NCBI GenBank assembly: GCA_003987775.1
Contig: RXJD01000036.1
Location: 1 to 64,000, forward strand
Direction of reading: 5' to 3'
DNA length: 64,000 nt
Source: Mycobacterium sp.
GTDB taxonomy: Bacteria; Actinomycetota; Actinomycetes; Mycobacteriales; Mycobacteriaceae
Shown here: positions 20,669 through 52,722 of the stretch, piece by piece
Numbering within the stretch: the stretch's first letter is position 1
How the letters are laid out: each line of letters starts with the position of its first letter
Notes under the pieces: model-generated
Seen by the model: the letters and a program-made list of their open reading frames with translations, nothing else
Told to the model about the DNA's origin: nothing
Database searches by the model: none
Made by a program: the position numbers and the translations under genes

Positions 20669-20763
20669 AGAACCGGTCAGATTGGGCAGATCTTATCTTG
20701 GGCCGTTCGGTGCAAGCGGTCACGATGGAACACAACAGTTCACTCTTGTCAGGAGTCGAGACC

Positions 20764-25654: not shown

Positions 25655-25778
25655 TGCCAGTCGGACACAATCGGATATCTCTGAGGAATCAGCCGAATCG
25701 TCATGGCGGCCACTCAGCTTTCTCCTCGCGCTACGGTGCCGGCGGGCCTCGCCCACCACCAGGCGACCCGAGCAATCT

Positions 25779-25808
25779 TGCGAAGTGTTTGCAGGTAGAA
25801 CTGTAGGC
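25779..25808. promoter_or_regulatory. Shared cluster element, copy A
   Basis: TGCGAAGTGTTTGCA (25779-25793) is a near-palindrome (5 of 6 arm pairs) followed by GGTAGAACTGTAGG. It lies midway between the divergent PPE operon and the YbtP/Q-like transporter operon. Copies B (31473) and C (32950) have the same core and the same GTAGTAA-type extension. Confidence 0.6.
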
Positions 25809-25939
25809 GTCAGCGTAACGCAGGTGGGCGCGACCACGCCAGCACAAATTGCGCGCGCGTATCCGGATTTCGCAGTCGCCGGCTTAGCGCATGATTACGG
25901 GGTCGGCCCGCAGCAGGACCGTTACGACGGAGGAGAGGC

Positions 25940-27712
25940 GTGGGAGAAGGCACTGAACCGAATGCCGCAGAGCCGCCGGGAATTCTGAAGCCGGCGCGGG
26001 TGACACTCGTTGCCTGCGGCCTGTTGTCGGCGGTCAGCTCGCTGGCCGGGATGGCGCCTCTGTTTGCAGTCGTGGAGGTGAGCAGGCGACTGCTCGCGGG
26101 CAACGCCGACGTATGGCCGATCATCATCATGGCCGTGGTGGCGCTGGCGGCAAAACAGTTAGGTGTCCTGACTGCCGGCGTGCTGACCCATCTGGCCGAC
26201 ATCCAGGTGTCGTTTCGAATCCGGCGCGAACTCTTGGTCAAACTGAGCAGAGTGCCACTCAGCTGGTTCAGCGACCGCAATTCCGGCATCGTGAAGAAAG
26301 CGGTGGAAGACGACGTGGCGGCGCTGCATCGCCTCGTCGCGCACTCGATCGTGGAGCTCAGCGCAGCGTCGGTGCCGCCGGTGGTGGCCTTCGTGTACCT
26401 GTTCGCCTTGGACTGGCGGATGGCATCGGCGACGCTGGTGCCGGTCATCGCCGGGTTCGCCGCATATCAGCGCGCCATGGCCAGCGCCGGTACCAAGTAT
26501 CCGGAGTTCATGGAATGGTTGGTACGCCTCAACAGCGCGGCAGTGGAATTCGTCAACGGCATCGGTGTGGTGAAGGCGTTCGGCACGCCAGGCACGCCGA
26601 GCCGCCGATTCCGGGACGTGTCACGGGCTTTCGCGCACTTCTTTCTCGACTGGGCCAAATCCACGAGCGTGGCCGCGGTGACGGCCGAGATCCTACTCTC
26701 GCCGCCGAGCATCCTGCTCGTCGTCGCAGCGACCGGCGCGTTTCTGACCGCCAACGGCGATCTGAGGCTGGAAGACTTCATCGCCTTCCTGGTGTTCGGT
26801 ACCGTCATCACCGCCGGCTGGATGACCGTGCTGATGTCGGTGCACCCGTTGGTCACCGCGGTGAAGGTCGCCCGGGAGATCCGTGAATTGCTCTCTACCC
26901 CAGAGCTTTCGGTACCCGACGCACCGGTGACACCCGACCCGGCAAGGGCCGGGCCGGTGGTGCGGATGCGCGACGTGCGCGTCACCTACGGCGACACGGT
27001 CGCGCTCACCGGGATCGACCTGTGTCTCGAACGCGGCACCATCACCGCGCTGGTCGGGCCGTCCGGTTCAGGAAAGTCGACGCTGGCCAAACTGCTGCCC
27101 CGGTTCGATGACCCCAGTACGGGCTCGGTCGAACTGTACGGAGTCGACCTCCGGCAGATCGATGCCGCCGCGCTGTACCAGCAGGTGGCATTCGTGTTCC
27201 AGGATTCACACCTGTTGTCCACCATGAGCATCCGCGACAATATCCGCCTGGGTTGTCCCGACGCCGGCGACGCGGCGGTACGCGCGGCCGCCGGCAAGGC
27301 CCAGATCCTGGCGAAGATCGAGGATTTGCCCCGCGGCTTCGACTCCGTGGTGGGCCAGGACGCGGCGCTGTCCGGCGGCGAACGGCAACGCGTCTGCATC
27401 GCCCGTGCGATTCTTGCCGACCGCCCGATTCTGGTGCTCGACGAGGCGACCGCCAGCGCTGACCCGGAGAACGAGGCGCGCATCCAGGAAGCGCTCAGTG
27501 CGGTCGCGCGGGACCGGACGGTCCTGGTCATCGCGCATCGACTCAGCACCATCCGGGGTGCCGACAACATCGTCGTGCTCGACAAGGGCCGGATCGCCGA
27601 ATCGGGAAGACACGCAGAACTTTTAGCCTCAGGCGGACACTACGCCCGGCTGTGGCAGCAGGAAAGGGACGCCGAGCGCGGCGTTATCGAGCAACTGGAG
27701 GCAGGGCGATGA
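25940..27712 (+). CDS. ABC transporter half-molecule, siderophore-importer (YbtP/IrtA) type
   Basis: A 590-aa permease-ATPase fusion. An N-terminal six-helix exporter-fold membrane domain (about residues 20-310) is followed by an ATPase domain. The ATPase has Walker A VGPSGSGKST, Q-loop VFQDSHLL, signature ALSGGERQR, Walker B ILVLDEATA and the H-loop AHRLST. In YbtPQ and IrtAB, proteins of this architecture import ferric siderophores. The N-terminal siderophore-interacting flavin domain of IrtA is absent, so YbtP is the better model. The start is a GTG at 25940 after GGAGGAGAG. The stop overlaps the next start (ATGA), indicating a heterodimer. Confidence 0.85.
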   Translation: MGEGTEPNAAEPPGILKPARVTLVACGLLSAVSSLAGMAPLFAVVEVSRRLLAGNADVWPIIIMAVVALAAKQLGVLTAGVLTHLADIQVSFRIRRELLVKLSRVPLSWFSDRNSGIVKKAVEDDVAALHRLVAHSIVELSAASVPPVVAFVYLFALDWRMASATLVPVIAGFAAYQRAMASAGTKYPEFMEWLVRLNSAAVEFVNGIGVVKAFGTPGTPSRRFRDVSRAFAHFFLDWAKSTSVAAVTAEILLSPPSILLVVAATGAFLTANGDLRLEDFIAFLVFGTVITAGWMTVLMSVHPLVTAVKVAREIRELLSTPELSVPDAPVTPDPARAGPVVRMRDVRVTYGDTVALTGIDLCLERGTITALVGPSGSGKSTLAKLLPRFDDPSTGSVELYGVDLRQIDAAALYQQVAFVFQDSHLLSTMSIRDNIRLGCPDAGDAAVRAAAGKAQILAKIEDLPRGFDSVVGQDAALSGGERQRVCIARAILADRPILVLDEATASADPENEARIQEALSAVARDRTVLVIAHRLSTIRGADNIVVLDKGRIAESGRHAELLASGGHYARLWQQERDAERGVIEQLEAGR

Positions 27713-29493
27713 TCATCGTCATCCGCTACCTGCTCGAACTGCTCGACAGGCGTGGGCGCCGAAGACTGCGCACGATGCTGATACTGCAAGGCGCGCAGGG
27801 GATTCTGCAAGGCCTGGGTTTCCTGTTCGTTGTCCCGCTCATCGGCGCACTGGTTCAGAGACCTGCGAATCACGGACAGCTCTGGTTCGCGGTCGCCGCG
27901 ATCGGCGTGACGGTGGCGGTGCATCACGTGCTGCTGGCATGGAGCACATCACTGGGCTATCTGGTCGGCACGGACGCGCTGACCGGATTTCACGCGCGGA
28001 TCGGAGAGCACCTGGCCCGGTTGCCGATCGGATGGTTCGGGGCCGACCGCACCGGGCCCGTCGGACGCCTGGTCGCCAAAGACGCAATCGACGTCGCGGA
28101 CTTCCCGTCCCATCTGCTCCGCCACGTGATCGTCGGTGTGAGCACGCCGCTGACCCTGATCATCGGAAGCTACCTCAGCGACTGGCGTATCGGGCTCGCG
28201 CTGACCGCGGGCGCCGTGTTGTGCGCGCAGTCGGTGCGGATGTTCATGGGCATCGTGCACCGCAACGACGGCGACTACGAACACGATATCGGTGTCACCG
28301 CGTCACGGATCGTCGAGTACGCGCGCATGCAGCCCACGCTGCGGGCATACGGTGTCCTGGGCCGCCGGGAGCTGGGCACACTCGAAGAATCCCTGACAAG
28401 GCAACAACATTCGCAGTCGAAGCTGACCATCCGCGGTGCCTGGGGGCTGATCGGATGCTTCGGCACGCTGCAGCTGGTGTTGACGGCCGTCATCGCCTTG
28501 GCCGTCCTGTTGACGCTGCGCGGCGAGCTTGCGCTGCCCACCATGATCGGTCTGCTCGTCATCACCCTGCGCATGATCGATCCCATCTCTCAGCTGGGCG
28601 ATCTCGCCGGGCACGTCCAGGTGACCGCCGACGCGATCATCCGGGTGCGTGAGCTGCTCGCGGTCCCGGCCCTTCCGGAGCCGGAGACCGAAAGTCCGGC
28701 ACCCGTCGACCACGACGTCGAGATACGCGGTGTGCGTTTCGGTTACCGCGACGGAGAAGCCGTCATTCACGGCGTCGACGCGGTCCTCCCGGCGGGCAGT
28801 CTCACCGCCATCGTGGGCCCGTCCGGGGCGGGCAAGACCACCCTGCTGCGACTGATCGGCAGGTTCTTCGACGTCGACGACGGCAGCATCCTGATCGGCG
28901 GCCACGACGTGCGTCAACTCGGAACCCGCAGGGTTGCAAACGTGACCGCACACGTCTTCGAAGACGTCTACCTCTTCGAGGGGACCATCGCCGACAACCT
29001 CCGGATGGCTGCTCCGGACGCGACGGATACCGCGCTCGACCGCGTGGCGGCCATCTCCCGGTTGGACGAAGTGATCGACCGTCTCCCCGACGGCTGGGAA
29101 ACCCGGGTCGGCGAAGGAGGATCGGCACTGTCGGGGGGAGAGCGGCAGCGGGTCGCCATCGCGCGGGCACTCCTCAAGGACGCCCCCGTCGTGCTTCTGG
29201 ATGAAGCGACCGCGGCGCTGGATGCCGTCAATGAGGCGGCAATCGCCGACGCCATTCGGGAACTGGCTGCTGACCGCACCGTTATTGTTGTCGCACATCG
29301 ACTTTCGACGGTGATGCAAGCCGACCAGATCCTGGTGCTGGAAAATGGACGCATCACCGCGCGCGGCCGCCATGATCAATTGTTGTCCGACGGTGGCACC
29401 TATGCCCGATTCTGGCGGGAGCGCCTGCAAGCCCGCGGCTGGCAACTGCGAGCCGAAAATCAGGTAGCGGCCCTGAACACGTTGAATTTGTAG
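27709..29493 (+). CDS. ABC transporter half-molecule, siderophore-importer (YbtQ/IrtB) type
   Basis: The 594-aa partner of the preceding half-transporter. A membrane domain (about residues 1-300) is followed by an ATPase with VGPSGAGKTT, ALSGGERQR, VVLLDEATA and AHRLST. The usual Q-loop Gln is replaced by Glu (HVFEDVYLFEG), so the two nucleotide sites of the heterodimer are probably unequal. The start is the ATG at 27709, overlapping the previous stop; upstream in-frame codons belong to the first transporter's coding region. The last 34 bp overlap the antisense methyltransferase gene. It likely imports the metal-loaded NRPS product. Confidence 0.85.
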   Translation: MIIVIRYLLELLDRRGRRRLRTMLILQGAQGILQGLGFLFVVPLIGALVQRPANHGQLWFAVAAIGVTVAVHHVLLAWSTSLGYLVGTDALTGFHARIGEHLARLPIGWFGADRTGPVGRLVAKDAIDVADFPSHLLRHVIVGVSTPLTLIIGSYLSDWRIGLALTAGAVLCAQSVRMFMGIVHRNDGDYEHDIGVTASRIVEYARMQPTLRAYGVLGRRELGTLEESLTRQQHSQSKLTIRGAWGLIGCFGTLQLVLTAVIALAVLLTLRGELALPTMIGLLVITLRMIDPISQLGDLAGHVQVTADAIIRVRELLAVPALPEPETESPAPVDHDVEIRGVRFGYRDGEAVIHGVDAVLPAGSLTAIVGPSGAGKTTLLRLIGRFFDVDDGSILIGGHDVRQLGTRRVANVTAHVFEDVYLFEGTIADNLRMAAPDATDTALDRVAAISRLDEVIDRLPDGWETRVGEGGSALSGGERQRVAIARALLKDAPVVLLDEATAALDAVNEAAIADAIRELAADRTVIVVAHRLSTVMQADQILVLENGRITARGRHDQLLSDGGTYARFWRERLQARGWQLRAENQVAALNTLNL

Positions 29494-30278
29494 GTGTCGA
29501 CCATCGACGGCAGCAGCCGCGCCAGCACCGACATCCCGATCCGCCGCTGCATCGGCCAGGATTTGGCGATCTCCGGCTGTGGGGTGGCCAGCGTGCGCGT
29601 GTCGAGCAACTCCAGTCCGCAGGGCTCGACGTCGCGCGGATCGTCGCAGACCCAGCGCAGCCGGGCCTTCACCTTCGCCAGCGACCGGTTGCGGTCCTGC
29701 CCGGCAACCATCCGGGCGCCGGCGGTGTCGAAAGCCAGTAAGGAGCCTGGAAACCGTTGCGCCAGTTGGGTGAGAGCGCGACGCACGTCTTCGTCGCGGA
29801 GATAGATCAGGACCGCTTCGCTCAGAAACAGGTGCGGTCCAGGGGAGGCGGCCACCACGTCCAGCCAGTCGGTGTCCAGCACGGAACCCGCCAGCATCAT
29901 GCACCGCTCGCTGTCGCTGAAGAACCGCCGGCGCAGGGCGATCGTGTCCGGGAGGTCGAGATCGAACCAGTGGATGCGGCCGTTGTCGAGCCGCTCGAAT
30001 CTGGTGTTCAGCCCGGTTCCGATCTCGACGACCGTGCCGCCGGGGTGCTCGTCGATGAATCGAGCCGCCCAGGCGTCGAAGATCGACGATCGATACACCG
30101 AACCGGACAACGATGAACCGCCGAATCCACTGAAGTCGTAGTCGATGGTCTCGACGAGTTCGCGTGCCCGGCGGTCGCCGAGCACGGGCCGTCGTGATGA
30201 GGCGTCACAGGCTCTGGCGTAGAGCGGAATCAGCAATGTTTCTTGGACCTCGCCCAGGTCCGGAACGGTGCTGCTCAT
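29460..30278 (-). CDS. SAM-dependent methyltransferase, LCMT/TcmP type
   Basis: A 272-aa class I methyltransferase of the leucine carboxyl methyltransferase (PF04072) superfamily. It has an N-terminal YRSSIFDAWAARFI segment and the SAM site TVVEIGTGLNTRFERL. Asp residues follow in HWFDLDLPDTI, then GSVLDTDWLD and LFLSEAVLIYL. Relatives in secondary-metabolite clusters O-methylate polyketides or carboxylates. It lies 31 bp downstream of a PE gene on the same strand, forming a PE-methyltransferase operon under control element B, and is tail to tail with the importer operon. Tailoring the metallophore (for example its terminal carboxylate) is a guess. Confidence 0.8.
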   Translation of the reverse strand: MSSTVPDLGEVQETLLIPLYARACDASSRRPVLGDRRARELVETIDYDFSGFGGSSLSGSVYRSSIFDAWAARFIDEHPGGTVVEIGTGLNTRFERLDNGRIHWFDLDLPDTIALRRRFFSDSERCMMLAGSVLDTDWLDVVAASPGPHLFLSEAVLIYLRDEDVRRALTQLAQRFPGSLLAFDTAGARMVAGQDRNRSLAKVKARLRWVCDDPRDVEPCGLELLDTRTLATPQPEIAKSWPMQRRIGMSVLARLLPSMVDTYKFNVFRAAT

Positions 30279-30309
30279 GAGCTCACCTTGCCAGTTGTCC
30301 AGCCAGGCA

Positions 30310-31410
30310 TCAGAGGGTGCCGCCCAAGGCGTGCCCGAGAATGCTGAGCAGACCCGCGGTGGCCCCGATCGGACCCACCGGTATGGGGGGAATGCTCAGG
30401 GCGCCGCCGGCGAAGTCGTCCGGCGGATAGAAGCTGAATTCGAGTCCCAGGGCGTTGAGCATGGAGCCGCCGGTGCCGTAATACAGCGGTCCGCTCGCGC
30501 CGCTCACCACCTGTCCCGGGCTGAACAGGCCGCCGAACGCGTAGCTGAGGCCATCGAGTCGCTCGCCGCCCGCGGACCCGGCAGTGACGAACGGGCCGAA
30601 AATCGGCGCCAATGGATCGAGGTTGAGGGTGGCCCCGTTGCAGAACGCGTCGGCGACGCGGGCGGGTGTGTCGAGCAGATGGCCGAGGGCCGCCGCCGGG
30701 GCTCCGCCGGTGAGGTCGGCGACGATGCTGCCCGCACTGTTCCACAACGCGACGCCCGGGCTGACGAAGGGCCCGATGGCTCCGAGCAGCACCCCGCTGG
30801 CCGGCGACGCGGCGAGATTGGTCAGACCCGTGACGAACGCCGACTCCAGGGTTGACCCGGTCTGGAAGTCCGCCAGGCCGACGAGACCCTCGTAGAGCTG
30901 GACATGCACGTCGTTGACGGGGACGACCTCGGGAGGCGTGACACTTCCGTTGGTCGCCTGAGTGACGCCACCCAGGGTGCGCTGCACGACGGCTGATGCG
31001 ACGTCCTGCGGAGCGCCTATCAGGAACACGGATTGTGCTGCGGTCTGCAGGTTTCCGAGGAACGTCGCAGGATTCGTGGCGAGCTGGCGAAGGCCCGTGG
31101 AGATCCCGGTGGCGAGAACCTGTTGAGCGTTGGCGCTTTCGGCACCCGCGTAGGCCGCCGCGCTCGATTGCAGGTCGCTGACGAATTGAGTGTGGAACGC
31201 CTGCGCTTGCGTGCTGAGAGCCTGGAATTGCCGGCCGAAGTCACCGAACAGTGCGGCAAGCGCGGTCGATACCTCGTCCTGTGCCGCAGCCGCGATCGCA
31301 GTCGTGGGACCCGCGACGGTTGCGGTGGCTTCGGCAAGGGACGAACCGATACTCGCCAAATCCCCGGCGGCACTGTGGACGAACCCCGCTGCCGCGATCA
31401 CGTACGACAT
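30310..31410 (-). CDS. PE protein with conserved C-terminal domain (copy 1)
   Basis: A 366-aa PE protein. The PE domain (about residues 1-95) starts MSYVIAAAGFVHSAAGDLAS and includes IAAAAQDEVSTALAALFGDF. A C-terminal region of about 250 aa ends in YYGTGGSMLNALGLEFSFYP, then PDDFAGGALSIPP. The same C-terminal wording occurs in the PE protein at 31664-32866, so they are paralogs. There is no nucleophile elbow of the PE-PPE hydrolase type. ATG 31410 follows AGGAG. It is cotranscribed with the methyltransferase gene, 31 bp downstream. Location in a metallophore cluster suggests an ESX-dependent role in uptake or export, by analogy with ESX-3 PE5/PPE4 and mycobactin. Confidence 0.85.
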   Translation of the reverse strand: MSYVIAAAGFVHSAAGDLASIGSSLAEATATVAGPTTAIAAAAQDEVSTALAALFGDFGRQFQALSTQAQAFHTQFVSDLQSSAAAYAGAESANAQQVLATGISTGLRQLATNPATFLGNLQTAAQSVFLIGAPQDVASAVVQRTLGGVTQATNGSVTPPEVVPVNDVHVQLYEGLVGLADFQTGSTLESAFVTGLTNLAASPASGVLLGAIGPFVSPGVALWNSAGSIVADLTGGAPAAALGHLLDTPARVADAFCNGATLNLDPLAPIFGPFVTAGSAGGERLDGLSYAFGGLFSPGQVVSGASGPLYYGTGGSMLNALGLEFSFYPPDDFAGGALSIPPIPVGPIGATAGLLSILGHALGGTL

Positions 31411-31472
31411 AGGCCGTGCTCCTGATCTCTCAGAGGTGACGCGCGCCGGTCAGTCGAAGCTCGCGCCTCTCC

Positions 31473-31500
31473 TGCATACGATTCGCATGTAGTAATCTGG
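31473..31500. promoter_or_regulatory. Shared cluster element, copy B
   Basis: TGCATACGATTCGCA (31473-31487) is followed by TGTAGTAATCTGG. It sits 63 bp before the PE start codon. On the minus strand a TTGACA hexamer (31518-31523) begins 31 bp from the core, exactly the spacing seen at copy C. A repressor bound here would cover the expected transcription start of the PE-methyltransferase operon. Confidence 0.6.
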
Positions 31501-31663
31501 TCGCAGGCGTTGCGGCTTGTCAAGCAAAAAGGCTCGCCTCATAGCGCGGTCTTCGGCTAGGTGTCCGCGTCGGTCATGCGTGAGTCGCGATCAAGTCGGT
31601 AGCGCTACATGTCACGGCAAACCCGTTGTGGTGCACATGCTTTGGCGATTCGCCGAAGCCGGA

Positions 31664-32866
31664 TCAGCTGAGCTGGCCGCCCAGGGCCAAGCCGATGACA
31701 TGGATCAGGCCCGCCGTGGCGGCTATCGGGCCTACCCCGATGGCGGGGATCTCGATGCTGCCGCCGGCGAAGTCATCCGGGGGCAGGAAACTGAGATCGA
31801 GACCCAGCGCGTTGAAGAGCGAGCCCCCGACGCCGTAGTACATCGGCCCGCCGGTGCCGTCGACCACTTGCCCCGGGCTGAACAGCCCACCGAAGGCAAG
31901 GCTGAGACCGGTGAGTTCTTCGGCACCGCCCGAACCGCTGCTGACGAACGGGTTGAACAACGGCGCCAGCGGATCCAGGTTGAGTGTGGCGCCGTTGAAG
32001 AAAGCGTCGACGACGTGGGCAGGCAGGCCGAGTACGCCGTTGACCGCCGCGGTCACATTCCCGGCAGTCGCATCAGCGAGGATGCTTCCGATGCTGTTGA
32101 GCAGCGCCACCGGCGGGCTGATAACGGGGCCCACCGCACCGATCATCACACCGCTCAACGGTGATGACGCGAAGTTGAGCACGGTGGAGAGCAGCAGGCC
32201 GTCGGGGCCGGACGGGATGTAACCGTCACCGACCAGGCCCGTGTACACCTCTCCATGCGCGTCGTTGACCAGAACCGGCAAGCCGTCCGGCCCACCCGTC
32301 GCATAGGTGACGCCCCCGAGGGTGTGCCGCAGCACGGAAAGCACTGTTTCGGGTGGCGCGCCCATCAGTGGCACCGACTGCAGCGCGGTGCGCACGTTGC
32401 CGAAAAACGTTGTGGGGCTGCTGATAAGCTGCCCTGCCCCGCTCGAGACGCCGCGGTACAGCGTATTCAGGGCCTGGTGATAGCCGCCCAATGCGCTACG
32501 GGCATTGTGATTCGTGGTGTCGACGACCTGCCGCCACGGTGCGATGGGATCCAGCGCTGCGGCGCCAGCGCCGATCGTGCGCGCGTTGGTGGTTTCGGCG
32601 CTGAGATACGCACCCGCGCTCACGTCGAGCAAGCTGACGAACTGCGCGTGGAAGGTGTGCGCCCGGGCGCTGAGAGTGTGGAATTCGCGACCGAAGTCAT
32701 CAAATAATGACGCGATCGCGACGGACACCTCATCCTGAGCCGCGGCCGCGATGGCGGTGGTGGGACCGGAAATCGACGCCGTGGCATCTGCCAGGGCCGA
32801 ACCGATCCCCGCCAACTGTGCGGCGGCGCCCTGCACCAGTTCGGGTGCAGCGCCCATGAACGACAT
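31664..32866 (-). CDS. PE protein with conserved C-terminal domain (copy 2)
   Basis: A 400-aa PE protein, paralog of the protein at 30310-31410. The PE domain starts MSFMGAAPELVQGAAAQLAG and contains IAAAAQDEVSVAIASLFDDF. The C-terminal part has MYYGVGGSLFNALGLDLSFL and PPDDFAGGSIEIPAIGVG, aligned with the same positions in copy 1. It has an extra stretch of about 30 aa (ALDPIAPWRQVVDTTNHNAR) after the PE domain. It is divergent from the first NRPS gene and shares the control region that carries element C. The function of the C-terminal domain is unknown to me. Confidence 0.85.
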   Translation of the reverse strand: MSFMGAAPELVQGAAAQLAGIGSALADATASISGPTTAIAAAAQDEVSVAIASLFDDFGREFHTLSARAHTFHAQFVSLLDVSAGAYLSAETTNARTIGAGAAALDPIAPWRQVVDTTNHNARSALGGYHQALNTLYRGVSSGAGQLISSPTTFFGNVRTALQSVPLMGAPPETVLSVLRHTLGGVTYATGGPDGLPVLVNDAHGEVYTGLVGDGYIPSGPDGLLLSTVLNFASSPLSGVMIGAVGPVISPPVALLNSIGSILADATAGNVTAAVNGVLGLPAHVVDAFFNGATLNLDPLAPLFNPFVSSGSGGAEELTGLSLAFGGLFSPGQVVDGTGGPMYYGVGGSLFNALGLDLSFLPPDDFAGGSIEIPAIGVGPIAATAGLIHVIGLALGGQLS

Positions 32867-32949
32867 GCGTACCGCCCTCAGCTCTCCAGGATGATGAACC
32901 GAGGCTTCCCGTCGGACGACCCGAAAACTTCACCAGGAAGAACCCGTGT

Positions 32950-32979
32950 TGCACATCGTTTGCAGGTAGTAACTTGCAT
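32950..32979. promoter_or_regulatory. Shared cluster element, copy C (divergent PE/NRPS promoter region)
   Basis: TGCACATCGTTTGCA (32950-32964, 5 of 6 arm pairs) is followed by GGTAGTAACTTG. It lies 84 bp before the PE start and 80 bp before the preferred NRPS start. A minus-strand TTGACA (32995-33000) begins 31 bp from the core, as at copy B. The 15-mer matches 11 of 15 positions of the actinobacterial Zur-type box TGAAAATCATTTTCA as I remember it. No IdeR-type TTAGGTTAGGCTAACC box is visible here. Confidence 0.6.
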
Positions 32980-33043
32980 TGAGAGCCAAGCGTTTGTCAA
33001 GGCGGCCGAGGCGCCGCGTCGGTCAGGATCGGAGGAAGAAGGG

Positions 33044-45000: not shown

Positions 45001-47550
45001 CACCGCCGCGCGGCGGCGGTCCAACGCGCTCTGGACAAGGCGCACCACCATCAGATCGCCGATCTTGATGTCGACCAGGTGCTGCACTTCGCCTCCGCCG
45101 CCCGCGCGACCGCGTTGGCGAGCATGTCTGCCGCGCTGGGCGCGGCCGTGCGCCCCGGCGAACGTATCGGCGTCGACGCACTGGCGCGCCGGTTGTCGCT
45201 CCCCGACCGGTTGAACCGGTTGTTGCACCGCTGGCTTGACGCCCTTGCCGACGACGGCCGAGTCCGGCAGCTGGCCGGATCGCAGATTGAACTGCTTGAC
45301 CACCAGAGTCTTTCGGAGTGCATCGGTGACTGGCAGCGAGTCCGTGAGCTGGGCGCGGCGGTCGACTACGGCGACGATCTGCTGGCGTATGTGGGGGAAT
45401 GCATCGAGCACCTGCCCGGCCTGTTGGCGGGCACCGTCGACCCGCTGCAGCTCCTTTTTCCCGAGGGCACCGTGGACACCGCGACGGCGGCATACCGTGA
45501 CAACCTGCTCAGCCGATACACCAATGACGTGCTGATCTCCGGCATCACCGCGCGCGCCGGCCGGGCCACAGAACAACGGCCGCTACGAGTCCTCGAGGTG
45601 GGTGCCGGTGTAGGCGGCACGAGCGTGGGATTGGTGACCGCACTGGCGCCCTATCCCGTGCACTACACCTTCACCGACGTGTCCCATTTCTTTCTAGGCC
45701 GCGCTCGAAATCTGTTCGCACAGCATGATTTTGTCGACTACCGCCGCTTCGACCTCAATCGGCCACCGGCAGAGCAGGGCTTCGCTGCGGGCTCGTTCGA
45801 CGTCATCGTGTGCGCCAATGTGCTGCACAATGCGCTCGACATCGGCGACGCGCTCGTCATGCTGGATCGCCTCCTGGCGCCGGCAGGGTCACTGGTTTTC
45901 GTCGACGCCACGGCCGTCAACCATCCCTTGATGATCTCCATGGAATTCAAGGAAGGCTTGCACGGCTTCACCGACGTGCGCGCGCAGACGAACTCGGCAT
46001 TCCTTACCTATGCGCAGTGGCAGGACGCACTGCGGCGTTCACCATTCGGCGCGGTGCACAGTTTCCCGCCGCCCGAACATCCCCTGGGCATGCTCGGTCA
46101 GCACGTGTTCTGGTGCGAATCAACATCTCCCGCGCAGGCGCTGCGGCCCGCAGAACTGATCGAAGGTGCCCGGCGGGCATTACCGGGTTATATGGTTCCG
46201 CAGCAGCTGGTCTGTCTGCCGGCATTCCCGCTGACCGCCAACGGCAAGATCGACCGGCGCGCGGTGATCGCCGAACTCGAGGCGCTTCGGGTCGCGGCCC
46301 GGGCCAGCGGCGGTGCGGTGGGCGGCCGGTCAGCGGTTCTGGACGGAATGCAATCCCGCATCGCCGCCATCTGGGCGTCGGTGCTGGGGTTGAACGTGGA
46401 CCAGTTGTCGCCCACCTCAGACTTTTTCGCACTGGGTGGGGACTCGCTGCTGATGGCGCAGGCGATCGGGCGGATTCGCCGGGAGGTCCCCGAAGCCTCC
46501 GGACTGGCCTGGGATGAACTGCTCCGCGCGATGGTGGGCAATCCCACCTTGGCGGCTGCCGCCGATGCGGTGCGCCGCCCCGCGGCGGACTGCTCACCGG
46601 GTGCGTCCACGCCTGTTGCGTCGCCGCTGGTCTATCTCGGCGCGGGCCAGGGCTTTTGCAAGGGTGGCGAGATCGCGGTGCTGGTTCACGACGGGAGCGG
46701 GGGACTGGCCCCGTACGACGAATTAGTTCCGCACCTGCGGGCGAGCGAACAGGTACCCGACCTGTACGGGCTGCGCAGGGTGCCCGGTGACGGCTATTCC
46801 CAGATCCCGCCCGCTGAGCTGTTCACCACGCTGGCCGCCCGCTACAGCGAACCGGTTGTCGCCCTCGCACCGGAGAAGGTTCACCTGCTCGGCTACTGCA
46901 TGGGCGGCCTGCTGGCCGCCGAGATCGCAAAGCGACTCGAAGAGGCCGGCATCGTGGTCGAAACCGTAACCGTCGTCAGCTCATACCGGGTACCGATGGA
47001 CGTCGAAGACGACGACATCCTCGACTACTGCTTCGCCCAGATCCTGGGAGTGCCACCCGAAGTGCTCGGGATGCACGTCGACGAGGATGCGGTGCGCGGC
47101 GCGTTCACCCGCGCCCGGTCGCGTTATGCCGATGTCATACCGGCGGGAGCGCTGCGCAGCGTCGCCGAGCCCGTGCTTGCCGAGTGCCTGCAGCGAAGTG
47201 CAGAAGCCGGTCCGGCGCGGCTACGCCTGCTGGCGGAATCGGGAGCCTTGGGGCCGTCGTGGGACGTGGACTCCTTGAGCGAATTGCGGTCGGTGTTCGT
47301 GCACAGCCTCCGGGCGGTGGTGCACGGTGCGGCCGAGCCGTTCCTGGGCGATATCCACTTCCTCCGGCAGCGCGGTGACATCCACTTCCTGCCGACATTG
47401 CAGGAGGACATGACCGCGTTCTGGTCGGGCTACTGTTTGGGCACGTTGACCATCAGCACCATCGACGGTAACCATTTCGACTGTCTGACTGGCGACAACG
47501 CGCAATCCGTCGCCCGGCTGCTGGCGGATGCCTGGGCAACAGACTCGTGA
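42091..47550 (+). CDS. NRPS 2: docking-Cy-A(Cys)[MT]-PCP-TE
   Basis: A 1819-aa terminating NRPS. An N-terminal TubC-type docking domain (about 1-58; LIERVRNLGVQLWVDGANLR) presumably binds the end of NRPS 1. Then come Cy (about 69-510; FPLTDLQAAYSVGR, D200-x4-D205-x2-S208, GDFT) and a Cys adenylation domain with pocket D-L-Y-N-M-S-L-I-W (FDLSVYN at 709-715). A methyltransferase with intact LEVGAGVGGTS (1168 on) is inserted before the last adenylation motif ANGKIDRR, as in HMWP1/PchF. PCP has Ser1452. A C-terminal thioesterase has GYCMGG with Cys1603 where Ser is normal, and H1795 in DGNHFD. It should add and N-methylate the last cysteine-derived ring and release the product. Confidence 0.9.
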   Translation: MSAAGLIERVRNLGVQLWVDGANLRFRAPQGVLDAELKAQLSAAKSDLIAELNRETEVLRAPQDRFEPFPLTDLQAAYSVGRTSAFRWGGVGCHGYAEFAVDHTVARPDARAYRSAWRKVVAAHDMLRCVVHPDGHQVISPDLADALTVVESADDQRILDERAHIAAKLAHRIYPLGEGPMYDIVVTIGPRDTVVHVSVDLLIADFVSISVLMTDFGRSLLALDNPLPAADFSFREYLLNLVRHRETDAGSSRRQRDLAYWQARLGQLPAPVALPLRPVDSASEITPTFTRRSMRLAADQFAAFSHLATQHGATASVAITAAFGSVLGRYGESDHFLLTLTTMNRHPFTPDVTRLVGDFTGTSLLEIDVRDGRPFIDLLRTVGGRLFEDMDHAAVGGVEVARMLAQSGENRGAHSPVVLTSTLGAGIRPDPGAGASFLRPIPGRGLSQTPQVLLDCQVFEIAGECEINWDTRDGAISDEVLDRAFADFRTVLQTLSTEPPAWRHPALAVLAPEPTPVPETSETALLHSGFVHHAAHTPDAVAIRQGEESTTYGQLMAAADAVADELSAAGVGAGDYVAIRLPEGRSQVAAILGTLLAGAAYVPLDVEWPDQRAAQITRQCSPAVVCEPGGPIDDLLADPAAWYPRTPVTHRTMPAPEDIAYVIFTSGSTGIPKGVMVTHRAAMNTVADINDRLGITARDAVLAVSQHTFDLSVYNIFGLLGAGGMIVFAEGGARNDPQAWADAIAKHDVTVWNSVPAQMQLLLDYAEGRPLPTLRQIMLSGDWIPVSQPRQISSLAPQASMLSLGGATEAAIWSICHPIEPRRYPRSVPYGTAMRNQAVHVLTHRGEPAAPWQIGEIHIGGAGLAQGYVADPVLTAAAFITHPVSGERLYRTGDFGRVTDDGVIELLGRRDNQIKIRGHRIELAEVEAALSALTGVRAAMSAALGVAPHELTIAAAVVADTADDEEQSQRHRRAAAVQRALDKAHHHQIADLDVDQVLHFASAARATALASMSAALGAAVRPGERIGVDALARRLSLPDRLNRLLHRWLDALADDGRVRQLAGSQIELLDHQSLSECIGDWQRVRELGAAVDYGDDLLAYVGECIEHLPGLLAGTVDPLQLLFPEGTVDTATAAYRDNLLSRYTNDVLISGITARAGRATEQRPLRVLEVGAGVGGTSVGLVTALAPYPVHYTFTDVSHFFLGRARNLFAQHDFVDYRRFDLNRPPAEQGFAAGSFDVIVCANVLHNALDIGDALVMLDRLLAPAGSLVFVDATAVNHPLMISMEFKEGLHGFTDVRAQTNSAFLTYAQWQDALRRSPFGAVHSFPPPEHPLGMLGQHVFWCESTSPAQALRPAELIEGARRALPGYMVPQQLVCLPAFPLTANGKIDRRAVIAELEALRVAARASGGAVGGRSAVLDGMQSRIAAIWASVLGLNVDQLSPTSDFFALGGDSLLMAQAIGRIRREVPEASGLAWDELLRAMVGNPTLAAAADAVRRPAADCSPGASTPVASPLVYLGAGQGFCKGGEIAVLVHDGSGGLAPYDELVPHLRASEQVPDLYGLRRVPGDGYSQIPPAELFTTLAARYSEPVVALAPEKVHLLGYCMGGLLAAEIAKRLEEAGIVVETVTVVSSYRVPMDVEDDDILDYCFAQILGVPPEVLGMHVDEDAVRGAFTRARSRYADVIPAGALRSVAEPVLAECLQRSAEAGPARLRLLAESGALGPSWDVDSLSELRSVFVHSLRAVVHGAAEPFLGDIHFLRQRGDIHFLPTLQEDMTAFWSGYCLGTLTISTIDGNHFDCLTGDNAQSVARLLADAWATDS

Positions 47551-48608
47551 AGGCACTGCTGTTCGGCGCCACTGGGGCAGTGGGGAGAAGCTGCCTCGAC
47601 GTTCTGTTGGGAGCCGCGGATGCCTCGGTGGTGCTCGCCGGTCGCGACGAGGCGAGGCTGCGCGAGGTGGCTGCCGGCGCCCGGGGTGATATCAGCATCG
47701 CGCGCCTCGACGCGGTCGATGTCGCCTCGGTGACAGGCTGCGACGTCGTCATCAACTGCGCCGGGCCCTCACATCGGCTCAGCGCATCAGTCGCCGGGGC
47801 CGCCATCGCCGCCGGGGTGCCCTATGTCGACCCGGGTGGGGACCAGGCGCTACTGGACCGCCTCACCGCCGCCAGGCCCGCCGTTCCGGTGCTGCTGCAG
47901 GCGGGTGTCCAACCCGGCCTCTCCGGGCTGCTGCTGCGTGAGTTGGCGCGCGAGAAGGCCGACGAGGTCCACAGCGTCACCGCGTGGTGCGGCGGACTGC
48001 AGCAGTTGACGCCGGCATCGGTGCTCGAATACCTCGCGAGTCTCCAAGACCGGAGCAGCCATCCCGGTGCCGAGCTGTGCGGCGGCAGGATTCGGCGCGC
48101 GGATCGTGCCGAGCGCGAAATGCCGCCGGCCCCATACTTTCCCGGCTCGGTCACGGTGCATCCGCATCTGGATTCCGAAACCCTCTCGGCGGCTGCGTTT
48201 CTCGGTATCGAGGATGTCTTGTGGATGAATGTGTTCGACGGCGCGCACACCACCCGGGCGATGCAGGCGCTGGTGCTCGACGACCACGAAACGAGCGACG
48301 CCGATCTGAGTGCTGTGCTGGCCGCTGCCAAACTCGACATGTTCGGACGCCGAACGTATTTCGCGATCGTCTGTGTCGCCGGCATCAGGACGGTGGCATT
48401 CACCTGTCCGGACAGCTATCGCGTCACCGGGGCGACGACGGCGTACGCCGCGCGGCTCGCCGCGGGAATGCCGGCGGGGGTCCTGCCCTTCTGGCGCGTC
48501 GACGAGCCGCGGCGCGTGCTGGACTTCGTGACCGGAGTGGTGCCCGGAGCCGCGGTGACGTACGCCGATGACGCGGTGCCGCCCTTGATCGAGGAAGGGG
48601 CGCTATGA
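47547..48608 (+). CDS. Saccharopine-dehydrogenase-like NAD(P) oxidoreductase
   Basis: A 353-aa protein with an N-terminal Rossmann fold (LLFGATGAVGRSCLDVLLG, then VVLAGRDEARL, DVVINCAGPSH) and the VPYVDPGGDQALLDRL segment of the saccharopine dehydrogenase/trans-acting enoyl-reductase superfamily. It overlaps both neighbours by 4 bp (GTGA and ATGA), so it is translated as part of the NRPS operon. Its role is unproven. It may reduce a thiazoline imine or modify a released intermediate. Related folds also make opine metallophores (CntM/ODH type), but no partner aminocarboxypropyl transferase is present here. Confidence 0.75.
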   Translation: MKALLFGATGAVGRSCLDVLLGAADASVVLAGRDEARLREVAAGARGDISIARLDAVDVASVTGCDVVINCAGPSHRLSASVAGAAIAAGVPYVDPGGDQALLDRLTAARPAVPVLLQAGVQPGLSGLLLRELAREKADEVHSVTAWCGGLQQLTPASVLEYLASLQDRSSHPGAELCGGRIRRADRAEREMPPAPYFPGSVTVHPHLDSETLSAAAFLGIEDVLWMNVFDGAHTTRAMQALVLDDHETSDADLSAVLAAAKLDMFGRRTYFAIVCVAGIRTVAFTCPDSYRVTGATTAYAARLAAGMPAGVLPFWRVDEPRRVLDFVTGVVPGAAVTYADDAVPPLIEEGAL

Positions 48609-49696
48609 CTGCGCACAGGCGTCCGCGCGCGATCGTCGTCGGAGCGACCTTCGGCGCGATCTATGCCGAGGCGCTGGCGGCCGCTGACTCACCGGTGGAG
48701 CTGGTCGGACTGGTCTCCACGGGATCGGCTGCCTCGGCGGCACTGGCCGATCACCTCGGCATCGCGCTCTACCCGGACCTGGACGATCTGCCGCACGTCG
48801 ACCTCGCGTTCGTGGTGGTGCGCTCGGGCGTGGTGGGGGGAGACGGTGCCCAGATCGCCGAGCGGTTGCTGGCCCGCGGCATCCATGTGATGCAGGAGCA
48901 GCCGGTGCATGCCGATGAGATTCTGTCGCTGTTGCGCACCGCGAAAGCGCATTCCGCCTGTTACGCCGTCAACGACTTTTACAGCCGTGTTGCGCCGGTC
49001 CGTCAATTCATCGCTACCGCACAAGGTCTCGACAAACGTGCGCGTGTCCGTTACGTGCACGCGCGGTCGTCGATTCATGTCGTCTACCCGTTGTTCGCCA
49101 TCCTGAGTCACATCGTCGGACCGCTCACGCCGGCGCGAGTCTCGGTGCTTCGAGAACGCGGGCCCGGCCCGTTCGCCGCGGGCCGCCTGGTGCTCGGTGA
49201 TGTGACCGTCGACCTACTGGTGCAGAACGAGCTGTGTCCCAGCGACCCCGACAATCACGCACGACTGTTGCACGCCATCACCGTCGGATCCGACGCCGGC
49301 GAACTCGTCCTGACTCATACGCATGGGTCGACCTGGTGGCATCCCCGTCCTCGCGCCGAAGCGGCGATGGCAGACTGGCCCATCTCCGAATTGGTCGGTA
49401 TCGATTTCGAACCGACCACTGCGATGGTGCGAAAGCAGCTGTGGCCACAAGCCGTTCGGCTGGCGGCAGCTGACTTCATCGAGTCGATCCGCATCTCCGC
49501 ACCGCTGATCAACCAGCGGTTCATTCGGGCGACCCGACTGTGGTCAGAGTTCACCTCGGCGATGGGTCCAGTCGATCTGATCGAAAACCAAGCGGTGGAA
49601 CATGTCTCGGCGGCGGACTTGCTCACCCCGTCACTGGGCGCGTTCCTGCACGATCCGCGCGAGATCGAGGCGGTGGATCCGTCGCACCATCGGTAG
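48605..49696 (+). CDS. Thiazolinyl imine reductase (Irp3/YbtU/PchG type)
   Basis: A 363-aa NADPH reductase of the Gfo/Idh/MocA fold. AIVVGATFGAIYAEAL and VVVRSGVVGGDGAQIAERLL, then RGIHVMQEQPVHADEI, follow the yersiniabactin Irp3 sequence almost word for word (Irp3, as I remember it: IVVRSTVAGGTGTQ, RGVHVIQEHPLHPDDI). In yersiniabactin and pyochelin synthesis it reduces an enzyme-bound thiazoline to thiazolidine. Later residues HVVYPLFAILSHIVGP and LVQNELCPSDPDNH also fit. It is the last gene of the NRPS operon (ATGA overlap with the preceding gene). The stop lies 65 bp inside the convergent FtsX gene. It is the best single marker that this is a thiazolidine-forming system. Confidence 0.92.
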   Translation: MTAHRRPRAIVVGATFGAIYAEALAAADSPVELVGLVSTGSAASAALADHLGIALYPDLDDLPHVDLAFVVVRSGVVGGDGAQIAERLLARGIHVMQEQPVHADEILSLLRTAKAHSACYAVNDFYSRVAPVRQFIATAQGLDKRARVRYVHARSSIHVVYPLFAILSHIVGPLTPARVSVLRERGPGPFAAGRLVLGDVTVDLLVQNELCPSDPDNHARLLHAITVGSDAGELVLTHTHGSTWWHPRPRAEAAMADWPISELVGIDFEPTTAMVRKQLWPQAVRLAAADFIESIRISAPLINQRFIRATRLWSEFTSAMGPVDLIENQAVEHVSAADLLTPSLGAFLHDPREIEAVDPSHHR

Positions 49697-51961
49697 TTGA
49701 GCCAGCGCGGCCGCACACAAAATGGCGGATGCCACCACCATTGGTGTCGTCGCGTGCATCTCCAGGCGCAGCGGGTAGCCGAGGCTGTGATAGGTGGACA
49801 GCAAACGGTCAGCGAGTAGCACCCCGCCCGCCAGGCCGAACGGCAGTCCGATCACCGCGACAGCGACGTTCTCGGCGGCGATCAACCGGGACAGCATGCC
49901 GGCGTCCATGCCTTCGGCGTGCACCGCGCCGAGTTCACCGAGGCGCTCGGATACGTTGGCAGACATCGCGTTGTACAACAGTGCGGCGGCCATCACGGCA
50001 GCGAATACCAGCATGATGCCGACCAGGGTGTCATAGAGGCCGAACGCCTGCCGCATGGTCGAGGCGAGCGCCGTCGACGAGCGGTAGGCGACCACTCCCG
50101 GCAAGGCCGCTATCCGGTCACCGGCCACCCGCGCGTCAGATCCGGGACGCAAGGTGATCAAAATGCCGTTGACGGGTAGCGAATCGGTCTGCGCTCTCAG
50201 CTGATTCAGCGAAATATAGACGACGGGTGAGAACGGTTCGTCGACGAATCCGGTCACCCGTTCAGTGAGTCGCGCTCCGGACTGCGGTACCACCACCTCG
50301 ATGCGGTCACCCAGCGAGACCGCCAGCATCTCGCGCAGGCCCACTCCGAGCAGAACGCCGTCGTCTGACAGTCCGTTCGATCCCGATTCCGCTGGGAAAG
50401 AGTGCATTCGGCTCTGCGGCGCCAAGCCGATCAACTGGGTCTGGTATCGGTGCGTCCCAGTGGAAACAGACGCGCCATAAGCGCTGTACGGTTCGGCCGC
50501 GGCGACGTCGCGGTCTCTGAGCAGCTCTTCCGTGACCGCGTCGGCCGAACCGGACACGACGAGTTCGCCGTCCTGCTTCGCGATCTGCCCGAATTGACGG
50601 TCGACCATGCCGGGCAGGGTGTCGCGCATACCGGCGAACACCATCACCAACACCACGGACACAGCCACGCCCGTCACCGTGAACACCGTCCGGCGCCGGT
50701 TACGCAACAGCGACCGCAGCACCATCCGCCACCGTGCCGGGATGGGCCCGAGCGGCACGGGGCGTCCGTTCCCGCGGCGGCGGTGCTGAGACGGGGCCAC
50801 CCGCATCGCCTCCGCGGGTTGCATTCTCGCGGCGGCATTGGCCGGTGCCACGGCCGCTGACACAGCAACACCGGCGACGGCGACGGCTGCCAGCAGGTAG
50901 ATGAGCGGATGAATGGAGGTGAGATGCATCGGCAGCGCGATGGCCTCGGTGTATCTCGCCGTAATCCACTGCCCCAGGAGGTAGCCACCGAATAACCCCG
51001 GAGGAATCCCCACCGCGGCACAGGCGAGGCCGTAGCCCAGGTAGTGCCTGCGCACAGCGCTGGGCGAAAGCCCATTGGCCAGCAGGGTTCCGATGACTGC
51101 ACGCTGCGCGGTGACAATCCGGGAGAGCAGCACGTAGGTCCCGAGAACGACGGCGGCAAGGAACAGCCAGGGCAGAAGTCCAGCGAGACTGCCGAACTGC
51201 ATGACGTCGTCGCGCAGGGTATGGAATGACGGCTGCTGCTCACGCGGAAGAAATTGCAGCCCGCGCTCTTGCGCCAGCGCTCCAACGGACGCGGTCAGGG
51301 CCTCAGCTGCGGAACGGTCGCGCGCATACACGGCGAGTTGCTCCACCGGCCGCGGCAGGAGGCGCAGCAGTTCATCGTCAGGCAGGAAGATGACACCGAA
51401 GTCTTCAGGGGTGGTCAGAACCTCCTGCGGGGATCGTGCCGGCCACAGGTATTCCGTCGACAGAGCCGCGCCCGCGATCGTAAAAGGTTGCCAGCCTTGT
51501 CTTCCCAACACGTCAAGCATGTCACCGGAGGCGAGGTGATAGTGGTCGGCGAGGTGCTGCTCGACATCCACTTGTCCGGCGCGCGGCAGCATCCCGCTCC
51601 GCATGTCGAGCAATGACACGTTCGGCTGCCCGGAGCCGGGCACACCGATGGCGCGTCCGTACAGCGCGTGACCGTTGATCCGGATGCCGACGTCGGCCTG
51701 GTGCCGAACATCGACGAGCGGACTGCCTGCCATCGCGGCGACGACATCACGCAACCCGGCCGCACCGGGTCCGGACACGACCACGTCCGGCAACCGCTGA
51801 CCGGTGTAGGAACGCTCGAACGATTGATCCAGATTCTGGTAGCCGTCGGTGGCGGCCACGAAGACGGCGACGCCGATGGCCATGATCGTCGCGATCGCCG
51901 CGAAGCGCCACCGGGCCCGCCAGGCATCACGGCGCAGCTTGCGGCGCAGCGTGCGGCTCAC
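49631..51961 (-). CDS. FtsX-family ABC transporter permease
   Basis: A 776-aa membrane protein with two FtsX/MacB-type modules. It has an N-terminal helix (FAAIATIMAIGVAVFVAA), a long periplasmic-side segment, and the first core (LPWLFLAAVVLGTYVLLSRI onwards). A second half repeats this order (TVFTVTGVAVSVVLVMVFAG; periplasmic; TLVGIMLVFAAVMAAALLYN; C-terminal helix). The GTG start at 51961 overlaps the ATPase stop (GTGA); the longer upstream frame lies in the ATPase gene. The C-terminal end overlaps the imine reductase gene by 66 bp, antisense. Such transporters usually move substrates out of or away from the outer leaflet, so export of the lipophilic NRPS product is a reasonable guess. Confidence 0.83.
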   Translation of the reverse strand: MSRTLRRKLRRDAWRARWRFAAIATIMAIGVAVFVAATDGYQNLDQSFERSYTGQRLPDVVVSGPGAAGLRDVVAAMAGSPLVDVRHQADVGIRINGHALYGRAIGVPGSGQPNVSLLDMRSGMLPRAGQVDVEQHLADHYHLASGDMLDVLGRQGWQPFTIAGAALSTEYLWPARSPQEVLTTPEDFGVIFLPDDELLRLLPRPVEQLAVYARDRSAAEALTASVGALAQERGLQFLPREQQPSFHTLRDDVMQFGSLAGLLPWLFLAAVVLGTYVLLSRIVTAQRAVIGTLLANGLSPSAVRRHYLGYGLACAAVGIPPGLFGGYLLGQWITARYTEAIALPMHLTSIHPLIYLLAAVAVAGVAVSAAVAPANAAARMQPAEAMRVAPSQHRRRGNGRPVPLGPIPARWRMVLRSLLRNRRRTVFTVTGVAVSVVLVMVFAGMRDTLPGMVDRQFGQIAKQDGELVVSGSADAVTEELLRDRDVAAAEPYSAYGASVSTGTHRYQTQLIGLAPQSRMHSFPAESGSNGLSDDGVLLGVGLREMLAVSLGDRIEVVVPQSGARLTERVTGFVDEPFSPVVYISLNQLRAQTDSLPVNGILITLRPGSDARVAGDRIAALPGVVAYRSSTALASTMRQAFGLYDTLVGIMLVFAAVMAAALLYNAMSANVSERLGELGAVHAEGMDAGMLSRLIAAENVAVAVIGLPFGLAGGVLLADRLLSTYHSLGYPLRLEMHATTPMVVASAILCAAALAQLPMVRRIHRLDLARIVQERAQ

Positions 51962-52722
51962 CAGTTCAATTCCGATGCATCCACTGGGTTTTCGATCAAC
52001 TCGCTCTTGCTGATGGCACCCGAGTGCAGCCACAGCACTCGATCCGCCATTCGCGATATTTCATTGTTGTGGGTCACGACGATCACGGCTTGCCCGCTGT
52101 GACGGGCGAGGTCGCTCAGGACCGTCAGGACCTGACGGCCGGTGGCCAGATCCAGGCTTCCGGTCGGTTCATCGCAGAGCAGCAGTGGTGGCTGCTTGAC
52201 GATTGCTCTCGCGATGGCGACCCGTTGTTGCTGACCCCCGGAGAGTTGCGCGGGGAAGCGATCTGCGACGTCCCCTACTCCCACGCGGGTCAACGCGGCG
52301 GCGCTACGGGATTGCGTATCCGGTCCCGTCAGTTCGGCGAGCAGTTCGACGTTCTCGCGCGCGGTCAATGTGGGCACCAGGTTGAAGAATTGGAAGACGA
52401 AACCGACCTGCCGGCGCCGGTAACGCGTCCGAAGTTTGCGGTTGAGCGCTCCGATATCGCGGCCGGCGACTTCGATGGTGCCGTGAGACGGCTGATCTAT
52501 TCCGCCAATGATGTTGAGCAGAGTGGTTTTTCCCGATCCGGATGGGCCGAGTAGGACTACGAACTCGCCCGGCTGGATCTCCAGGTTGACCGATTCCAAT
52601 GCGATGACCCGGGTGGGTCCCGCGCCATAGGTTTTGCCCACGTCGGTCAAGCGCACCAGCGGCAGGCCGTTTCGAAGGTTCGGCTCCGAGTTCGCGTCAC
52701 CGCCATCCGGATGTGCGCTCAT
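51958..52722 (-). CDS. ABC transporter ATP-binding protein (LolD/MacB type)
   Basis: A 254-aa ATPase. It has Walker [15 protein letters not shown] (about residue 45), Q-loop [20 protein letters not shown], signature [15 protein letters not shown], Walker [13 protein letters not shown] and the H-loop VVTHNNEIS. The phrase [20 protein letters not shown] (a landmark) is typical of the LolD/MacB branch that pairs with FtsX-like permeases. Its stop overlaps the permease start (GTGA). It is divergent from the ATP-grasp gene at 52896. Confidence 0.9.

Follow-up and report, generated by a model that had tools for sequence, protein, structure and literature searches.

Nur-type operators in a predicted lipid-tailed thiazoline metallophore cluster of Mycobacterium sp., some of whose relatives carry Zur boxes

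The window analyzed here (the whole stretch of 64,000 nucleotides of an environmental Mycobacterium sp., positions 1 to 64,000 of contig RXJD01000036.1, assembly GCA_003987775.1) carries a gene cluster for a predicted lipid-tailed thiazoline metallophore, with two nonribosomal peptide synthetases (NRPS1 and NRPS2) and adjoining transporter and PE/PPE genes. Its promoters contain Nur-type operator sequences, one of them before NRPS1 at the place where the corresponding promoter of M. simulans has a Zur box. Gene content, motifs, conservation, operator sequences, and co-occurrence with a Fur-family gene were observed; from these, we infer chemistry, substrate order, transport roles, metal, and regulator binding. 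With about even confidence, the system is taken to be a nickel/cobalt-responsive metallophore that would be derived from a zincophore, its repressor being a Fur paralogue linked to nicT (encoding a Ni/Co transporter) and not Zur. The complete proposal, that is, a lipid-tailed tetra-cysteine thiazoline metallophore dedicated to Ni or Co, placed under Nur-like Fur control through in-place replacement of a Zur operator by TGC-N9-GCA, with one relative (G202) holding both, is more tentative. The metal served by a predicted metallophore is usually unknown, and one conserved cluster whose operators are of the zinc type or of the nickel/cobalt type, depending on the species, represents a natural experiment. 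If true, the proposal would provide a nickel- or cobalt-controlled metallophore in mycobacteria, a clear regulator exchange at an orthologous operator, and a metallophore whose metal program was changed by operator rewriting.

All sites of the window listed in Table 1 follow the pattern TGC-N9-GCA. When 14 NRPS1 promoters were scored, 8 of them also being aligned, a Nur-type site was present before NRPS1 in eight genomes (that of the window and seven relatives), and in five of the relatives, this site aligns with the Zur box of M. simulans. The M. simulans Zur site, TTGTTGAAAACGATTTTCATGTTATAAATTGC, aligns with GTGTTGCACATCGTTTGCAGGTAGTAACTTGC of the window, and near-identical sites align at the same place in M. 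gordonae 8773, M. intermedium, and the relatives G227, G006, and G119. Compared with the M. simulans site, both half-sites are now TGC, the dyad and, downstream of it, the promoter-like sequence having been retained. In G202, the aligned place is occupied by a Zur box, with a Nur-type site 23 bp upstream; M. alsense, which stands outside the promoter alignment, has CTGCATATGATTCGCAT in its NRPS1 promoter. The site before the gene for ABC half-transporter 1 (ABC1), third best of the window with a 17-site matrix (see below), was also found at −162 to −175 in G227, G006, G119, M. alsense, and M. intermedium.

Zur boxes were scored with a matrix of 19 M. avium paratuberculosis boxes (Table 2 of PMC4298942, a source available in part). 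There was none in the 64-kb window, where the best score anywhere was 4.6 bits, and none in the NRPS1 promoters of the window's closest relatives. Boxes of 28–39 bits precede NRPS1 in M. simulans, Mycobacterium sp. 141, two Nocardia cyriacigeorgica genomes, and N. paucivorans, and the box next to the Nur-type site of G202 scored 26.4 bits; in 1.71 Mb of order-1 random sequence, zero sites reached at least 25 bits with this matrix. In the window's own genome, a 47-bit Zur box precedes ribosomal-protein-like genes (named by eye), which is why its Zur presumably uses the usual box. Zur control is probably the ancestral state of the cluster, because, in a tree of NRPS2, the Nur-type clusters and M. 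simulans both belong to an unresolved Mycobacterium crown, and the Zur-type clusters from Nocardia and sp. 141 branch outside it. An earlier sequence-only reading of the window had considered the metal not to be deducible from the sequence. This was too cautious, given the Zur boxes in relatives and the Nur-type boxes here. As these boxes are present and the window contains no IdeR-like site, zinc in the Zur-boxed relatives and nickel/cobalt here would be favored over iron.

A candidate for the regulator is encoded in the same genome, where a Fur-family gene and the gene for a NicO-domain transporter (347 bits) diverge from an intergenic region that contains TGCAAGTGACTTGCA. At 21 of 24 loci of this Fur paralogue, the divergent gene has a NiCoT motif, and at 20 of the 24, a TGC-N9-GCA box lies within 350 bp upstream. 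Once the GC-rich loci L192, L193, and L194 had been dropped, 17 nicT-fur boxes were kept, 11 of which came from genomes without the metallophore cluster and constitute the 11-site matrix. In the 64-kb window, this matrix ranked the site at 32949 first and that at 31472 second. Across the cluster spans of the window, M. intermedium, and M. alsense, eight of the nine top-three sites lay in cluster promoters; with 400 column-permuted symmetric matrices, the mean was 0.76 and the maximum 6 of 9, so that none of the 400 reached eight. The corresponding numbers were two of three for G006 and three of three for G202, two of the latter being its Zur boxes. The Fur paralogue occurs in 93 of 297 genomes of the genus, in all eight genomes with Nur-type sites, and in neither of the two Zur-only mycobacteria (M. 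simulans and sp. 141). M. intermedium has a second copy (78–80% identical), which is separated by ∼180 bp from the end of the cluster-edge PE-PPE gene. The paralogue is called Nur-like on account of its neighbor gene and its box, because it is not nearest to structure 3eyy, which we take to be Nur of Streptomyces coelicolor.

Several findings weigh against this interpretation. Compared with 3eyy, the Fur paralogue yielded an E value of 8.7e-6 and rank 20 of 23, behind Fur, Zur, and PerR chains, the nearest PDB chains being Fur and Zur. The score of a single operator is ordinary (random 64-kb windows reach 16.6 bits versus the 15.0 bits observed), and the genome-wide motif count equals that of the backward control (24 versus 24). 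The nicT-fur boxes were picked by TGC-N9-GCA, a pattern suggested by the window's own site, and the sites were already known when the promoter regions for the matrix test were delimited, which makes the test not fully blind. Furthermore, the window, G227, G006, G119, and M. gordonae 8773 form one clade and are, thus, not phylogenetically independent. Although both operator types occur in G202, NRPS1 of this genome is spread over two frames, so that its promoter may be under little selection. One N. cyriacigeorgica encodes a 56%-identical Fur relative despite its Zur-type cluster, M. alsense retains a Zur box upstream of the exporter, and the NRPS1 promoter of N. arizonensis contains neither a Zur nor a Nur-type site. 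Finally, a product with four rings but no phenolate may accommodate several divalent metals.

That the product is a zincophore throughout, the TGC-type sites representing another layer of control or being read by a Zur variant, is the least improbable alternative, although still an unlikely one. Five relatives have Zur boxes before the same genes, Zur control is described for coelibactin, a member of a related class (PMC3430247, in the portion available), and a zinc-responsive island of NRPS, ABC, and PPE genes is described for M. avium paratuberculosis in the available part of PMC4298942; yet, the best Zur score within the window falls far short of that of the box found elsewhere in the genome. 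An iron siderophore of the pyochelin/yersiniabactin type is much less probable, despite the resemblance of domain order and reductase to PchE/PchF/Irp3 and of the importers to IrtAB and YbtPQ. IdeR-like sites matching 14 of 19 positions near cluster promoters of G202 (at 11311) and M. alsense (G271; at 33469 and 33493) would speak for iron and against nickel or cobalt; they are one position below the 15/19 sites that precede MbtA-like and bacterioferritin-like genes in the window's own genome (genes named by eye, and the consensus being what we take to be that of IdeR). Because of these latter sites, IdeR-controlled mycobactin probably provides for iron, and the cluster itself has no phenolate starter and the 64-kb window no IdeR-like site of at least 14/19 by that same consensus. 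Marginally lower still is the probability of a lipid-tailed polythiazoline with a role other than that of a metallophore (signal, antibiotic, or envelope lipid) or of a copper ligand. Polythiazoline natural products without transport roles do exist, and envelope lipids, too, are typically associated with FAAL chemistry and PE/PPE genes. However, no result speaks directly for this reading, IrtAB/YbtPQ-like importers are linked to the cluster in 9 of 10 relatives, and metalloregulator-type operators occur in two forms; the operator scans covered Zur, IdeR, and Nur-type sites, copper operators not being scanned for.

Operators outside the window deserve mention in their own right. Elsewhere in the window's genome (G000, C114:17667; L240), a Nur-like dyad, AGCAAATCATTCGCA, precedes another PE gene by ∼120 bp, and this gene may, therefore, also belong to the regulon. 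In M. simulans, seven additional Zur boxes (21–46 bits) lie between the cluster transporters and the NRPS genes (assembled locus of G023, 14280–21426), which suggests a larger zinc island. In the NRPS1 promoter of G202 (11245–11330), as in G271 (33303–33511), Zur boxes are close to 14/19 IdeR-like sites, in G202 together with the Nur-type site; multi-metal control is possible in these species.

If the cluster is indeed a nickel/cobalt-responsive metallophore system, it could operate as follows. The FAAL domain would activate a fatty acid and load it onto the acyl carrier protein (ACP), whereupon four heterocyclization (Cy) modules would add four cysteines, each cyclized to a thiazoline; the adenylation domain A1 would charge the peptidyl carrier proteins PCP1 to PCP3, and A2 would charge PCP4. 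The imine reductase would convert one thiazoline to a thiazolidine, which the PchF-like methyltransferase (MT) would N-methylate, and the thioesterase (TE) would release the chain, the end of which may be methylated by the LCM-type enzyme. Module logic, thus, predicts a product composed of a fatty acyl group and four cysteine-derived rings, one of them reduced and perhaps N-methylated, with ring 2 passing an epimerase- or MT-like domain. The FtsX permease and its ATPase would export the product, the PE-GjpA and PPE proteins may aid in crossing the outer membrane, and the IrtAB/YbtPQ-like pair would re-import the metal complex. In the clade of the window, the Fur paralogue beside nicT would bind the TGC-N9-GCA operators in three promoters and repress the cluster, which would be turned on under nickel (or cobalt) shortage here, and its orthologues in some other species under zinc shortage. 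Yersiniabactin reportedly takes part in nickel uptake.

Table 1. Genes, domains, and putative operators of the metallophore cluster (positions within the window)
Feature	Position	Strand	Remarks
Putative Nur-type operator TTGCACATCGTTTGCAG, PE/NRPS1 divergent promoter	32949..32965	.	best of window, 15.0 bits
Putative Nur-type operator CTGCATACGATTCGCAT, ∼60 bp before PE-GjpA 1	31472..31488	.	second best of 64 kb, 10.7 bits, 11-site matrix
Putative Nur-type operator TTGCGAAGTGTTTGCAG, PPE/ABC1 divergent promoter, 162 bp before ABC1	25778..25794	.	9.5 bits, 11-site matrix
NRPS1: FAAL-ACP-Cy1-A1-PCP1-Cy2-MT/E-like-PCP2-Cy3-PCP3	32891..42094	+	
FAAL domain, predicted fatty-acid starter loading	33125..34780	+	PRK05850 398 bits; structures 7r7e, FadD23, FadD32, FadD28
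Cy2, borders approximate	38198..39490	+	first Asp degenerate (N/SxxxxDxxS); cyclodehydration T + D kept
Methyltransferase-fold domain, Cy2/PCP2 interval	39488..40190	+	SAM motif EIGSRTG (R for G); possible epimerase type as in PchE
NRPS2: TubC docking-Cy4-A2(Cys)-MT-PCP4-TE	42091..47550	+	PchF-like order
Saccharopine-dehydrogenase-like NADP-binding protein	47547..48608	+	shares its family with SrbE from the sorangibactin cluster (PMC10127202, available in part)
Thiazolinyl imine reductase, Irp3/PchG type	48605..49696	+	TIGR01761 221.8 bits, above cut-off 188.8
PE protein with PE-PPE esterase domain	22608..24044	-	
PPE protein (PPE-PPW), start probably near 25640	24041..25837	-	PPE 204.9 bits from residue 67; PPE-PPW C-terminus
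ABC half-transporter 1 (ABC1), IrtA/YbtP-like, N-terminus shorter than that of IrtA	25940..27712	+	IrtA E 3.4e-115
ABC half-transporter 2 (ABC2), IrtB/YbtQ-like	27652..29493	+	
LCM-type O-methyltransferase	29460..30278	-	61–92% identical in all 7 same-genus loci compared; 73% in M. intermedium
PE domain fused to GjpA-like porin region (1)	30310..31410	-	NF033942 123.8 bits, cut-off 100
PE domain fused to GjpA-like porin region (2)	31664..32866	-	NF033942 145.7 bits, cut-off 100
FtsX/MacB-type permease, candidate exporter	49631..52033	-	converges on NRPS operon
ABC ATPase, partner of FtsX permease (DevA/MacB/LolD-like)	51958..52722	-	

The gene and domain content that the sequence-only reading had described was confirmed, and its interpretation was supported in part. 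Two NRPSs, four Cy domains, cysteine-type A domains, and a FAAL domain with its carrier are present, and the Irp3/PchG-type reductase, besides exceeding its family cut-off, matched the YbtU/Irp3 structure 4gmf with an E value of 4.5e-37. A thiazoline class with lipid starter, cysteine-derived rings, and linked transport is supported. The claimed absence of a salicylate starter also held: no salicylate synthase, salicylate ligase, or aryl carrier protein (ArCP) was found among the open reading frames (ORFs) of the window that were scanned, which are a subset, and the starter position is taken by the FAAL domain, the PRK05850 score of which is below the model cut-off of 775. NRPS1 probably starts at GTG 33044 (preceded by GGAGGA) rather than at 32891. 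Its reading frame is followed by NRPS2, which overlaps the saccharopine-dehydrogenase-like gene, which in turn overlaps the reductase gene. The specificity codes read by eye, DLYNLSMIWK for A1 and DLYNMSLIWK for A2, correspond to what we take to be the cysteine adenylation code.

Cy2 is atypical (18.8 bits, under the Pfam threshold of 30.6), and N/SxxxxDxxS stands in place of DxxxxDxxS in all seven aligned NRPS1 orthologues. The T and D residues of cyclodehydration are present in all three Cy domains of NRPS1 in the same seven sequences, and in Cy4 of NRPS2 as read by eye. Ten rows had been entered into this alignment (that of G202 not among them) and seven remained, G227, G006, and G271 having been dropped for stops in the stretch read; these stops sit before the NRPS1 start, and the frames are open over 3017–3069 amino acids. 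The top structural match of the MT-fold domain of NRPS1 is PchE, tied with methyltransferases, and its SAM motif reads E(I/V)GSRTG in the aligned Mycobacterium rows versus E(I/V)GSGTG in N. cyriacigeorgica. In the reductase, Q99 replaces H101 of Irp3 and is invariant in nine of nine orthologues; Y126 (Y128 of Irp3) is kept.

The FtsX-type permease with its ATPase, the methyltransferases, and the PE/PPE genes were likewise found where predicted. Only part of the assignment of YbtP/YbtQ-type half-transporters stood: the transporters are paired, but ABC1 is closer to mycobacterial IrtA (389 bits) than to 6p6i_A (298 bits), presumably YbtP, and ABC2 is about equally close to YbtQ (291 bits) and IrtB (287 bits), its top PDB scores belonging to full-length P-glycoprotein-type chains. 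PE domains fused to a GjpA-like (outer membrane porin) region also accompany the metallophore genes at the other Mycobacterium loci read, seven of eight in total (sp. 141 being the exception), and could constitute an outer-membrane route. The LCM-type enzyme possibly methylates a carboxylate of the product. The PE-PPE esterase gene adjoins the PPE gene also in G227, G006, G119, G023, M. intermedium, and the partly fetched G202. An ORF at 52719–54236 (minus strand) was rejected as spurious and not a member of the system because it has no Pfam match and is antisense to a 489-amino-acid ORF (52896–54365, plus strand), which is 95.9–97.5% identical across six matched loci from five genomes.

The lipid-starting NRPS metallophore of M. 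tuberculosis, kupyaphore, is linked to zinc in mycobacteria; unlike the product predicted here, it is an isonitrile lipopeptide made without Cy domains. Pyochelin and yersiniabactin share with the window cluster the order Cy-A-MT-PCP-TE of NRPS2 (which we take to be that of PchF), PchE as the best PDB sequence match of NRPS1, and an Irp3-like reductase. They differ in that the window has more ring-forming modules, that A1 must load three carriers, and that neither salicylate ligase nor ArCP was found. According to the available part of PMC10127202, coelibactin of S. coelicolor and sorangibactin are also NRPS-made thiazol(id)ine chains encoded together with a saccharopine-dehydrogenase-like protein, and control of coelibactin by Zur (PMC3430247, available in part) is what several relatives of the window cluster appear to have as well. 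Whereas those two systems have a salicylate starter and a P450, the window has a FAAL starter, four cysteine modules, and no Zur box; a P450 was not found among the scanned ORFs. The mpt/sid island (LSP14) of M. avium subsp. paratuberculosis, compared by description only, also combines IrtAB-like ABC, NRPS, and PPE genes under Zur boxes, but its NRPSs are annotated with thioester reductases, Cy domains being unmentioned in the part of PMC4298942 available. The Nur box of S. coelicolor, tTGCaa-N5-ttGCAA (PMC3919588, available in part), has the same geometry as the TGC-N9-GCA sites of the window; the difference from that regulon is that the PDB comparison did not single out Nur as the closest relative of the mycobacterial Fur paralogue.

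The chemistry class is already known from pyochelin, yersiniabactin, coelibactin, and sorangibactin, which makes this part of the novelty claimed by the sequence-only reading smaller and shifts it to regulation. Among the literature matches listed, there was no FAAL-started four-cysteine member with PE/PPE genes, no difference between Zur and Nur-type operators, and no metallophore under Nur.

The cluster is conserved yet rare, and also occurs in Nocardia. Its imine reductase was found in 8 of 297 sampled genomes of the genus (own included) and in 34 of 397 of the order, with more than 50% identity in the own genome, G202, G006, and two N. cyriacigeorgica only. NRPS1, NRPS2, the saccharopine-dehydrogenase-like gene, and the reductase gene are in the same order in all nine relatives compared first and in M. 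intermedium. Because both NRPSs match over nearly their full length in these same genomes, the gene set is far beyond chance. ABC1 and ABC2 were found in all of the 10 relatives except Mycobacterium sp. 141 (55 kb fetched); the stretches fetched for G202, sp. 141, and the two N. cyriacigeorgica contained neither the FtsX permease nor its ATPase. In G202, NRPS1 (assembled locus, 11272–20639) matches in two frames, the long open frame comprising 2836 amino acids only, which indicates an apparent frameshift in the FAAL part (a broken gene) or a sequencing error. Named holders of the cluster among the best 80 of 127 relatives are two M. gordonae, M. intermedium, M. simulans, M. alsense, Mycobacterium sp. 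141, two N. cyriacigeorgica, N. arizonensis, and N. paucivorans. The FAAL domain of the cluster is present (55–83% identical) in 9 of 14 genomes searched, M. gordonae DSM 44160 having been read directly. The locus of Nocardia sp. BSTN01 (L067) carries the rest of the cluster genes; the FAAL search and the comparison of NRPS1 promoters did not cover this strain.

Other reductase-bearing clusters (G559, G316, G310, and G347) have different NRPS layouts. A contig labeled as a Rhodospirillaceae metagenome-assembled genome (L052) encodes a 70%-identical reductase, NRPS2, and part of NRPS1, and is probably a misbinned mycobacterial contig. A relative of NRPS2 (41% identity over 92%, in three pieces) is encoded on the 206-kb plasmid record CP053317.1, which is labeled Salmonella enterica and carries no annotation.

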